Assembly: GCA_024220525.1 (NCBI GenBank)
Contig: JAMYWO010000414.1
Span: 3,105-29,624 of the forward strand
Source: Cochliopodium minus
Lineage: Eukaryota > Discosea > Himatismenida > Cochliopodiidae
DNA length: 26,520 nucleotides
Reading direction: 5' to 3'
Shown: in pieces, positions 4,701 through 12,420 of the stretch
How positions within the stretch are numbered: the first letter of the stretch is position 1
How the letters are laid out: each line of letters starts with the position of its first letter
Notes under the pieces: generated by a model
Seen by the model: the letters and a program-made list of their open reading frames with translations, nothing else
The model's database searches: none
Told to the model about the DNA's origin: nothing
Made by a program: the position numbers and the translations under genes

Positions 4701-7700
4701 GATGATGTCAAATTTCCATAGGAATTGTTTGTGTATGCAACATTGTTATATCCATTGATGAATGGAACTTTTAATGAGTACAAACAAATTGGACATCCTA
4801 AAAGAATTGTTAAAAAGAAAAAAAATTCAAAAAAAAACTATTCTCACCATAAGCTATTTTATTTTATTTTAATAAAAAAAAAAAAGATAAATTTAATTTA
4901 AAATAGATAAGAAAAAAATATTACTATCAATACTACTTGTTAAATATGAACAAGAAGGATAACTTTCTGTTCCTTCACAATACTCGTTCTTTGAACATTC
5001 TGTTGCGTTCAAACTTTGATCACATTCGCCTATAAAAATTATTTAAAAAATATAATTGAAAAAATAAAAAATTTTACTTTTGGAGTTCCAGTAACAACCT
5101 AATGAATGAGAAGACTTTATTGGACAATTTCCTATACCATTGTAACATGAGTCACACGTTGAATAATCCATTCCATTGCAAGTCTCCCATTCATTTCCCA
5201 ATAAAGTACAATTATTTTGATCAAAAATATTCAAAATGCAAATGTTATCACTATCTTCCCAGCTCCCTTTGTTATCTATTTTTTAAAAAATGATGGATTC
5301 AGAATTTTTTTAATGAAGATTTAATCTTACCCAAACAACTTGTTTTGTTGCTCATGGAACTTGAAAAACAAACTCCTTTTTCTGCAACCTATTTTAAAAT
5401 TTTTAGAAATAAATAAGAAAAATTTTATTAAATAAAAAAATTGTTACAAAAGAACTTTCACATTTTGGACATCTTTTGATTTAAAAAAAATAATTGAAAA
5501 TGAATTTAAATTTTTTTTAAAAAAAAATGAATGTTTACCTTCCAATACAGTTTGAGATATTTGAACAATTCCCAATTTGAATATTTTTATTCACAGAACA
5601 AATACTTAAATTTTCACAATCTGACTTTGAGTTTATTGAAAACTGTAAAGTGTTTTTGGGTCTCCAAATTTTCCCTCCAATCCATGCACCTCCATTACTT
5701 TTTTTAAAATAATATTTAGTGGAAAAATAAAAATAATTATTTCATTATTACTTTTCACAAATATTCTGAAACGGAAAATTAAAAATACAAGATCCCAAGT
5801 TCGAATCCCAGTACTTGAAAGAATTATCAGCAGTTGTGGAAATACATGTGGAATTAGTTTCACTACTAATATCTTTACAATAACCTCTCAAACAATTAGA
5901 ATAAGTAGATGAACCAGTACTACATTCACAATCACTAAAAATAATAAAAATATCAAATAAATTATGAACAAATGAAAAATTAAAGTGAATTACGATTGTG
6001 TTAGATTGGAAAAGCAAAAGTTTTCAAAGTTGTTCCATTCAAAACCATTATTCTCGCAAGTAGATTTTGTAGAATATCTTTGTTCGTTTACAACACAAAC
6101 ATCTCCAAATGGTATTTTGGTGCAAAGACCATCATCTGAACAAATCTAATCAATAAAATTAAATTCTAAAAAAAAAATACAAAAAATGAAAAAATAACCT
6201 CACAAACACCAGAAAAATTTTGAGAGATGCATTCAGATTGAATTGTATGAGGATAAGATAATGCATTTGAATTTGGATCTTTACAATAACCCATCTTTGT
6301 ACATTCTGTTTCATCCAAATCATAATAGATGATTGAATCTTGGGAAATACATAAGTTCTGTTTGGTTCTATTGAAGAATTCCGAATAAAACTGAGTTTCG
6401 GTGGAGCTTGTCATGTTCCATGCTGTTTTTGCTAGATTTTCTATATCAGTAGGGATTGTGTGGTTGTATTGAAAACATTGCATGATAGCATTTTGAGTAC
6501 TATTTATATCACCTATTTAAAAAAAAAAAGAATATTAATTCAAATTTTTTTGAATATAATTTAGCTTATTTTTACAATATCCACAAACTCTTTCCAAAAC
6601 GTCACACTTTGAACAGAAACAACTAAATTTTTTTATAAAAAAGATATTTGTAGGAATGTCAATTTATTTTTGAAATTTTTTTTTACTCTTTATCTGATTC
6701 ACATGACTTTGGTGCGAGAACTCCTGTTGCGATACTTACTATACTTTGTCTAGGAGTTTTAATTTGTTTGTTGTAACAAGTAAACAACTCCTCCAATTTT
6801 CCAATCAATTTCTTTTTACAAAAAATTAACTGCATTCTATAAAAAATATAATTTTATTTTGCCTTATAGTTTGCCCAACTTTCAGCACTCACTGTACATC
6901 CTGTTTCAGGATTTAAATAGAGATTTCTCAAAGAAATATAATCTTGTAATAAAGATTCGCTTTTCTTAGGGGTTGAACATTTGTTTGTCACTTTGGGAAC
7001 TGTCTTTGTGAATTTTTCAATTTTGTTTGTAACATTTCTGTTATCACAACATTTATCACTCCACTGATATAAACAAGTTAAAAAAGTTGAACAAAAAAAA
7101 CAAAAATGAAAGATTTTTTACTTGAATTAATAAAGGATTGCAACAAGCTATATTTTAAACAATTTATAATTTGAAAATTTTTAAAAATAAGGTATTATTT
7201 TTTGTTCTTACCATCTTATTTTCCATAAAAAAATGATTGATAAATTTTAAAATTTTCAAAGTTTTACCATTTTCCTTTTAATTTATTTTATTAGATAAAT
7301 TAATAAAATAAAATGAATAATTTTTAATGAGATACCCAGTCCAATGTTGCCGGACTTGAATAACAATATTTACTTTCATAAACAAACTGATCTATTGTTT
7401 CTTCCAATCTCGAATCCAAATACTGCTTGCAACCATTCATTCTATCGCTCAATAAAAATAAACCAGCTTCCCTTTATTACCAAAAAAAAATTCGAATTAA
7501 AAAAAAATAGAAAATAAAATAAAATAGCATACCACTGATTGAAAAATGAAAGTTAGTTAAAAATCAATTTTTTTTTTTTTTAACCAAAGTATCCAAAAAT
7601 AAACTCCTACAAAATTAAAAAAAAGTAAAGAAGAATGTATAAAATTAAAATAAAAAATTTACCAATTTGTATCTGTCTTTAATAATTCTGTGAATTCTTG

Positions 7701-9516: not shown

Positions 9517-12420
9517 TTATTGTAAGTTTTTGATATAAGCCAATGCATTTGCTATTAAAAAAAAAAAAAAGAGTTAATACAATGCTTTAAAAAAAACAAA
9601 TTTACCATAATTAATTGAGCCAAGTCCTGAGGCAGCGTCCCATCCGGAAGAGCAACCATAACCATACTTGCAAGCTCTTGGAGATGTACTCCAAGCACTT
9701 GTACCAACAGTGATGTCATGAAAAGTGTTGGTATTGTTGGTTTGCATTTGATAACTTTTAATTTCATAAAATACAAATAAAAATGAGTAAAAAATATAGT
9801 GCAAAAATAATTTTACAATAATGGATTGAGAAATCCAAGAGGTTTTTTGTTTGCGTTCAATCTTGCATCATTCAAAAGGGAAACAATACCTGCAAAGATT
9901 GGAGTAGAAGCAGAAGTTCCAGCAGAGACACTAAAAAAGAAAATGGAAATAAAATCAAACTTTTTTTAAAAAAATTTTTTACCAAATATTTCCTCCCATA
10001 ATAATTAAAATTCCTTTGAAAAAAAAAAAAAATTTTTTTTAAAATAACAATTAATTCAATTTTTTATACTGTCTCCACAAGCGACAACATCAGGGTAAGC
10101 ACGATTGTTAGGGTTGAAGTATACAGTTGGAGGGATAGGCCATGTCTTGTCAGTAGATGGATCCAACCATCTTGTAACTTGACTGTCTTGCCAGACTGGT
10201 CTTGAAGTATAGTTCGCAAATCCACTTCCACCAGTCCATGTATAGTATCTTAAAAAATAATAAATTAAAAATTTCTTCATAAATTATTTCAAACAAAAAA
10301 TTATTACGAGTTATTTGCCATCGTGAAAAATTCTGCTCCACCAGTTACTAAAGGAGAGCATTTATACCTTCAAATTAAAATTAAAATATGTAAAAAAAAA
10401 AGTTTTAAAAGTTTTACCCATAATATTTACTTGTACAGATTTTTGGTTCTTCAGCTTCAACTTTGTTTTCAGTTTTTGGTTTTTTTGAAGCAAAAGAAGT
10501 AGATGATACAGTTGTTACCCATTGTGAACTAAAAACATTTTTTTTTAATTTTTTTTTGATTTTTTTATTTTATTATATATTTACCTTGCAGGATAAACAG
10601 GCCAGACTGGATAAGTTTTTTCTAACTGACAATTTTGATTATTATAACTAGGTGCACCTTTTATTTAAATAAAAAAAAAAATTATAAATTAAAATAAAAT
10701 AAAATTAAATAATATCTCTTTGAAGATACCTTCATCTTGTGCTGCAACCAAAACAGAAATTCCTAAACCTGCCAACTTCATCAATTCTTGATTGGCTCTT
10801 TCTACGTATTGTTGAGCATCAATCCCAGTACAATTTGCATTTGTAACATCAGCTTCGCACTATTTTGGAAAATTGAAAATAGTGAGAATATTTTCTAAAT
10901 TAAAATATTTTCAAAAAAAAAAAAATTAAAATTTACAGTTTGTGCTTCCATCCAACCATAGGAAAGGGACACAACCAATGGAGGGTTATTCATAGTGAAA
11001 AGGGTATTAGCCATGTCATAAACCCATCCATCTGCAGTGATATAATAAGTTGGTACTCCAGCACCAATTGTTGTGATATCTAAAATTAAATAATATAAAA
11101 ACATTTTCAAAATAAAAATAAAGACAAAAAAGTTTACATTGAATGTCTAATGTTGATTCTCCGCTTCCTCCCGATTGAACAGGCCCAATAACTCTTGTAA
11201 CATTATTAAATACTTCGTCTGCTTCTGAGGAGAATTGTTTAAGGTCATCCCAAGATGGCATTCCAACAGGCAGAAACTCAAAAACTAAAAAAATAAAATA
11301 AAACGAAATAATAAAAATGTTACTTTATAAAATAATTATTTTTTTAAAATTAATTACCACTTTGACTATATTTTTTGAAGAAAAAAAATAATGTTACAAA
11401 ATATTTTAAAAAAACCTTTGTTTACGAATTCTTGGTATTGTTTCCACTTGTTCCTGGAGGAATGTTGTAAAGAAATCTCATAGTTTGAGGAATATTGTAT
11501 TCATAATCAAACTCGTCTTCATTAACAAAACTAGTTGCAGAATGAATCTTAGAAATTCTTTTTGTCATTAAGTCTTTTCTCACTTTCGGTAAAGCGGAGA
11601 CTCCCGAAAGGAAGGAGATGTGTTGTTGGAGGGAGTGAGGGAATATTGGATGAGTATCTTCGATGTGTCTGCGGTATACGGAGAAGGATGGATTCTTCTT
11701 CATGAAGTATCTCATCATTCTAACTTTTAACACTTTTTCTGCACATCTGATAGGCCCAGTTACTTTGATGGAATCTATTTGGGAAAAGTTTTAAAAATTG
11801 AATGAAAGATTATTATGTTCTTTATTTTATATTCAAAAGAGTATTAATAATGTGGTTATAGTCTCAATTATCATTCACTTTTTTACCTTTATTATTCTCA
11901 AATTCAAATTCTGAGCATTGATCTTTCAAATATTTGATTATGGAGCTTGAAATTTCTTCAGGAGGTGAGATTATAGATTCTATTTCATCTTTCGAAAGCC
12001 AATTTGCTATGTGTGAAAGATAAGGTTTGAATAAAAAATATAAAATTTAAATTTTTACAATAATTAGGGCTCAATGGATTAGAGATATCGAGTACCATTT
12101 TCTAAAAAAATTGATAAATGATAATACTCTTTTATACAACAAGATAATACCTCCAATTGTCTAACATTGCTTAATTTCAATGCGATAGTGAATTTATAAA
12201 TGCTTTCAGGATTGGCTATTGTTTGATTATGTTGTTAATAAATTGGATTGGAAGATATTGTTTCCTACCTCTTTGATATTTTGTAAAAAAGATTGTAATC
12301 GAGAAATAATTTTAAATAATCTTACCTTTGTGACATTATCCAATCATCATTTACTTTCACATTCTTTGCATAACAAAATGAAAAAAGAATAAAAACAATA
12401 AATAGGAAAAAGGTCTTCAT
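9517..12420 (-). CDS. TPP1-like tripeptidyl-peptidase (sedolisin, peptidase S53)
   Basis: 617 aa if spliced as 12420-12326, 12270-12269, 12215-12151, 12101-12059, 12006-11887, 11774-11426, 11365-11358, 11284-11138, 11079-10937, 10859-10730, 10657-10585, 10528-10418, 10367-10308, 10248-10070, 10013-9983, 9930-9817, 9754-9606, 9551-9517. Order: signal peptide (1-18); pro-kumamolisin prodomain (about 25-200), including [19 protein letters not shown]53 catalytic domain to the end. Catalytic residues appear as GESTLDIQY (Glu270, Asp274), oxyanion Asp366 in AAQDEG, and Ser525 in AGTSASTP. The C-terminal calcium site is HDI...GWDAASGLG. It is therefore expected to be an active acid serine-carboxyl protease removing tripeptides from N-termini in lysosomes or outside the cell, made as a zymogen that self-activates at low pH. 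Human TPP1 has 563 aa; extra length includes a Lys/Glu-rich insert near residues 413-428. The usual GG before TSF is SS. Confidence 0.93.
11358..11365 (-). other. 8-nt microexon of the sedolisin gene
   Basis: TCAAAGTG lies between acceptor ATATAG and donor GTAATT. The preceding exon ends in phase 2 and the next starts in phase 1, so about eight coding bases are needed. Adding them gives NTKNSQSVFEF, which aligns with the NNSQACAQF stretch of human TPP1. No other in-frame join was found. Confidence 0.8.
12269..12270 (-). other. Proposed 2-nt microexon (AG) of the sedolisin gene
   Basis: The bases AG sit between an acceptor CAAAG and a donor GTAGGA. Using them splits the interval into introns of 55 and 53 nt and yields MSQRANPES, matching the R-A-x-P-E motif at the start of sedolisin prodomains. 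A single 108-nt intron ending in AT (12325-12218) would give the same mRNA. A canonical alternative using the acceptor GAAAG at 12203 stays in frame but deletes RANPE. Confidence 0.4.

Follow-up and report, generated by a model that had tools for sequence, protein, structure and literature searches.

A gene for a predicted TPP1-like sedolisin in Cochliopodium minus very probably contains a coding exon of only two nucleotides. The exon, AG at 12270-12269, would lie between two short introns of the ordinary GT-AG kind, the downstream one (intron b) most likely having been gained 2 nt from the upstream one (intron a). The gene lies on the minus strand of the window, as we call the whole stretch of 26,520 nucleotides that was analysed. 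Two paralogs in the same genome, here named C11 and C25 after the contigs that carry them, bear directly on this reading. The gene and the features around its first introns are as follows.

9517..12420, minus strand: whole TPP1-like sedolisin gene, 18 exons and 17 introns modelled as GT-AG, 617 aa
12326..12420, minus strand: exon 1, 95 nt; hydrophobic, signal-peptide-like start, then DDWIMSQ; ends in phase 2 with AG
12271..12325, minus strand: intron a, 55 nt, GTAAGA..ATATCAAAG, with CAAAG as its end
12269..12270, minus strand: putative 2-nt microexon AG; would finish the Arg codon AG/A and open the Ala codon G/CC of R-A-N-P-E
12216..12268, minus strand: intron b, 53 nt, GTAGGA..AACAATAG, with AATAG as its end
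12151..12215, minus strand: exon 3, 65 nt, beginning CCAATCCTGAAAGC; conserved prodomain

The Sedolisin Gene and its Product

The gene was built both by hand and with a spliced aligner using the C25 protein as query. These builds are partly dependent, the C25 protein itself having first been read with the window protein as query. Both give a protein of 617 residues with zero stops and zero frameshifts over the 18 exons. The aligner was restricted to GT-AG introns in these runs, and a model consisting of GT-AG introns throughout thus means that no other kind was needed. The product matches human TPP1 in a phmmer search (1.3e-50) with both the prodomain and the protease domain aligned (3edy, 3ee6), and the Pfam pro-kumamolisin activation domain (Pro-kuma_activ) scores 83.6 bits. 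It is a predicted TPP1-like sedolisin (S53) and an ordinary-looking protein, the oddity appearing to be confined to the structure of the gene: both domains are like those of tripeptidyl-peptidase 1 and sedolisin family S53, and the window gene differs in exon structure only.

The Putative Exon of Two Nucleotides

The last two bases of exon 1 open a codon that the exon does not complete. Joining it directly to CCAATCCTGAA (12215) gives MSQSQS followed by a stop, and the statement in the preliminary description that a plain join of exons 1 and 3 fails thus holds. When AG at 12270-12269 is inserted, the frame is restored and the motif R-A-N-P-E is encoded, again as had been proposed; coordinates and phases match, and the reading aligns with GWVSLGRADPEEELSLTF of human TPP1. 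In the phmmer alignment dWimsqRAnPE of the window protein is paired with GWVSLGRADPE of the human enzyme. The borders read CAAAG/AG/GTAGGA, that is, an acceptor AG directly before the two bases and a donor GT directly after them. The frame, the motif and these splice-site letters can be read directly from the DNA, and we infer from them that the RNA is actually spliced in this way. The predicted junction is AGAGCCAATCCTGAA in the window and AGAGCAAACCCTGAA in C11. A scan of the 110-nt interval between exons 1 and 3, in which at least 20 nt were kept on each side, found a single internal exon, AG, that is preceded by AG, followed by GT and in the correct frame.

Both introns resemble those of the family at large. 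The lengths of 55 and 53 nt had been described as the local norm, and the remaining 15 introns of the gene model are indeed 49-112 nt long. Among 41 ordinary introns of the sedolisin family the minimum is 49 nt and the median 60 nt, and introns a and b fall within their spread at percentiles 88 and 39 for the donor and 59 and 32 for the acceptor.

With the C25 protein as query, the aligner chose the 2-nt exon in both the window and C11, and did so without a frameshift whether the intron penalty was 3, 9 or 15. Masking only its acceptor AG cost 32 points in the window and 33 in C11 and added a frameshift. When C69, a more distant paralog, was the query, the same masking cost only 6 points and gave no frameshift, the alignment merely starting later. 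Of the four proteins used as queries, C25 and C69 gave alignments that passed through the site; those of the human and C144 proteins began downstream of it.

How easily such an exon arises by chance was estimated from 20,000 dinucleotide shuffles of each interval. For the window and C11 respectively, 0.19% and 0.77% of the shuffles contained an AG exon flanked by introns of 40 nt or more, 0.6% and 4.7% contained some 2-nt exon in frame, and 3.2% and 27% contained an internal exon, whatever its length, that was in frame and free of stops. If the two intervals are independent, the product of the rates is about 1.4e-5 for the AG exon and about 3e-4 for any 2-nt exon. Some chance rescue is thus not rare in the longer C11 interval; the exact AG exon is rare.

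Paralogs in the Same Genome

In a protein search of the genome, contigs C25 and C11 yielded close relatives, and C144 and C69 gave weak matches. C11 is identical to the window protein at 301 of 429 aligned residues and to C25 at 297 of 417, and is thus no closer to the window gene than to C25. At the same site in C11, exon 1 ends in GAAAG and is followed by 79 nt, AG, 64 nt and CAAACCCTGAAAGC, and both intervals are GT-AG.

L032:1485-1486: putative 2-nt exon AG of C11, in the context ATACAG/AG/GTATAG

A plain join without this AG hits a stop in C11 as well. The donor of its intron b is weak, at the 12th percentile of the 41 ordinary family introns. R-A-N-P-E-S is encoded by AGA GCC AAT CCT GAA AGC in the window and AGA GCA AAC CCT GAA AGC in C11, with two synonymous changes and no replacements; since the differences are synonymous only, these codons look translated in both genes. 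The same architecture at C11 provides the strongest support for a microexon in the window.

C25 has one intron of 57 nt, at the position of intron a, followed by AG/A GCT, which gives R-A-D-P-E. Its Arg-Ala codons continue into its second exon, and there is no intron b. A relative with one intron only had been suggested in the preliminary description as a way to separate a microexon from a GT-AT intron, and C25, which carries the upstream intron only, is such a relative within the same genome. Neither C69 nor C144 has an intron at the site; both align straight through the region, with KADP in C69 and NANL in C144 at the position of the motif. Taken together, C11 and C25 favour the microexon over a GT-AT intron, and they argue against both a downstream acceptor and a sequencing error.

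The C11 sedolisin gene is split into two pieces with about 16 kb between them (L032 near 4682 and L031 near 5980-6010). Both pieces are bounded by low-complexity tracts resembling TTTATTTATT, one of which contains an N, and the split is probably a misassembly at a low-complexity intron. A further candidate paralog, C412, was found as the second match in a DNA search (78%, query bases 221-296). It was rejected: the match lies in AT-rich, repeat-like sequence, and tblastn with the sedolisin protein found nothing at that locus.

Alternative Readings of the Site

The interval could be a single intron of 108 nt with GT-AT borders (12325-12218), in which case the AG before CC would stay exonic and there would be no microexon. 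The mRNA would be identical, as had been pointed out for the window; the same is true of C11, where AATAG precedes the exon too. When GT-AT was allowed, the spliced aligner scored it at 2051 against 2039 for the two introns, 12 points better, because one intron penalty is saved. Some precedent exists in the form of one GT-AT intron, marked as rarely spliced, in a table for Giardia (PMC10711314), and in U12-type introns a 5' G may be combined with a 3' T (PMC4176328). Such an intron would, however, leave unexplained why an internal AG-AG-GTA with two intron-sized halves is conserved in both paralogs. Judged by the U12-type donor consensus, the donors GTAAGA and GTAAAT do not look U12-like but resemble those of ordinary family introns, and a U12-type context was not found. 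A search for U12 snRNA gave no match in this genome, and likewise none in any control genome, so that its negative result carries no weight. The other introns in the models of the window gene, C25 and C11 needed no AT acceptor, although the aligner was limited to GT-AG. At another putative 2-nt exon of C11, described below, a GT-AT intron would give T-G-E-T, with Gly where the window and C25 have Cys. A review (PMC13149111) cites a survey in which minor non-canonical classes account for about 0.08% of sites. We regard a GT-AT intron as very unlikely.

Even harder to credit is one GT-AG intron that would run from 12325 to an acceptor whose last base is 12203. This acceptor is in frame in the window and loses RANPE (MSQSIYKF), both as the preliminary description had it, and the GAAAG of this acceptor is present in C11 too. 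Its use would nevertheless bypass the nearer AATAG and drop a motif that is found in C25 (RADPE), C11 (RANPE) and human TPP1 (RADPE), even if the motif is not universal, as C69 and C144 illustrate. The codons that would be skipped differ by synonymous change only between the window and C11, and C25 lacks an AG at the homologous point (GAAAAC). The Pfam prodomain score drops from 83.6 to 79.8 bits with model positions 2-13 lost, although the shorter protein used in this comparison had also been truncated further downstream. Unusual splicing would be unnecessary altogether if the gene were decaying or if the sequence or its assembly were wrong, and the assembly does seem faulty elsewhere, the C11 gene being in two pieces at low-complexity tracts. 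Against this stand the same architecture at that second, diverged locus and the uninterrupted reading frame of the window gene elsewhere in its 18 exons. Apart from the region itself, a DNA search moreover returned a single match, 74 bases of low complexity, and thus no near-identical second copy. Error or decay is in our judgement scarcely believable here.

Other Apparent Very Short Exons

The window gene contains a second exon that is far shorter than usual, and C11 has a further apparent exon of two nucleotides:

11358..11365, minus strand: putative 8-nt microexon, TCAAAGTG, between introns of 60 and 73 nt; part of N-S-Q-S-V
L032:3554-3555: apparent 2-nt exon AT of C11, between introns of 60 and 154 nt

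Omitting the 8-nt exon breaks the reading frame of the window gene. C11 carries ACAAAGTG where the window has TCAAAGTG, and N-S-Q is found in human TPP1 too. Read as a microexon, the AT of C11 gives T-C-E-T, compared with TCET in C25 and TCEA in the window; its upstream donor is weak, at the 5th percentile. Exons of at most 10 nt number two of 18 in the window gene, three of 19 in C11 (read before the assembly break) and none of 12 in C25, where neither the 2-nt nor the 8-nt exon of the window gene is present. None were found in three HSP70 genes (seven introns), in enolase (four introns; realigned to the protein joined from its own exons) or in the C69 and C144 sedolisins, the smallest exon being 17 nt. 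Among 20 aligned actin-family loci, out of 83 matches, three had exons of at most 10 nt, namely L049, L050 (36% identity) and L054 (two frameshifts); these were left uncounted. The actin superfamily is large in this genome, its 83 matching pieces being spread over many contigs, and several copies are open over their full length without any intron. Ultra-short exons are thus not a feature of every gene of the genome, and the sample is too small to give a genome rate.

Proposed Splicing and Origin

The ordinary spliceosome would remove introns a and b as two short GT-AG introns of 55 and 53 nt, each by intron definition. Tiny exons have been proposed to be too small for recognition across the exon and to depend on intron definition, which is easier when the introns are short (PMC8378409), and the lengths seen here would fit such a scheme. 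The two introns are presumably removed one after another, since an exon of 2 nt cannot seat the 3'-site and 5'-site machinery together; the introns flanking a 1-nt exon have likewise been proposed to be removed, probably, in succession (PMC4674806). CAAAG ends both exon 1 (12330-12326) and intron a (12275-12271). If intron a goes first, the context of the intron b donor would be unchanged, because exon 1 and intron a share their last five letters: it reads CAAAGAG/GTAGG before as well as after the removal. The order of the two steps is inferred. Joining CAAAG, AG and CC would then give the Arg and Ala codons of R-A-N-P-E, while skipping of the 2-nt exon would shift the frame and lead to an early stop soon after the signal peptide. 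The exon is probably constitutive.

Intron a is common to the window gene, C11 and C25, intron b is found in the window gene and C11 only, and C144 and C69 have neither. The simplest reading is that intron b is the newer of the two and was acquired, 2 nt downstream of intron a, in an ancestor of the window gene and C11, and the 2-nt exon was perhaps formed in this way. The direction of this change would be reversed if intron b was instead lost in C25, a possible alternative because C11 is equally close to C25 and because the grouping of the window gene with C11 has only 54% ultrafast bootstrap in a tree that also includes C69, C144 and human TPP1. Intron a was also considered as the newcomer, since CAAAG on both its flanks is reminiscent of a target-site duplication, but was rejected, as C25 has an intron at exactly that position; the shared position makes intron b the better candidate.

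Relation to Known Systems and Significance

The closest parallels are found in plants. A single-nucleotide exon of Arabidopsis APC11 has been proven by RNA (PMC4674806), and 1-nt exons are conserved in plant APC11 and VPS55 (PMC8831610). As reported in these sources, those exons are like the one proposed here in being coding, far below exon-definition size, essential for the frame, missed by annotation, and present in some copies and absent from others. They differ in being 1 nt long and having RNA proof, whereas the present exon is a predicted one of 2 nt, in an AT-rich eukaryote with a median intron length of 60 nt in this family. Catalogues of plant microexons of 1-15 nt exist and may include 2-nt cases (PMC8831610; PMC12409088). 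A literature search on phrases for a 2-nt exon, with most subscription papers outside its scope, found no described case, which is weak evidence.

Microexons of animals, such as those of C. elegans that depend on PRP-40 (PMC8378409) and the constitutive 4-nt exon of MPC1 (PMC9929638), are likewise too small for exon definition, and short introns on either side are thought to promote intron definition. They are larger, and many are alternative and neuronal, whereas skipping of the 2-nt exon in the window would break the frame.

Recursive splicing is known from zero-nucleotide exons within long introns. There, too, acceptor and donor almost touch, and stepwise splicing is expected. It differs in retaining no nucleotides and in involving long introns, while here two nucleotides stay in the predicted mRNA and the introns are very short.

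A size of 2 nt is close to that of the smallest exon possible and hints at how tiny exons arise, and exons of 1-2 nt test how the spliceosome acts with almost no exon to define. With a putative 2-nt exon in two paralogs and a third that has one intron, it becomes possible to test in which order the introns are spliced and how the exon originated. Automatic annotation of comparable intron-rich genes will break the frame at such sites. As a tentative and rather doubtful extension, this genome might repeatedly make ultra-short exons through introns gained a few bases from older ones and removed in two ordered, constitutive splicing steps. Were this true, every such exon would be an all-or-nothing gate for the reading frame, and C25, C11 and the window gene would form a natural series showing the gene before and after a 2-nt exon was born.
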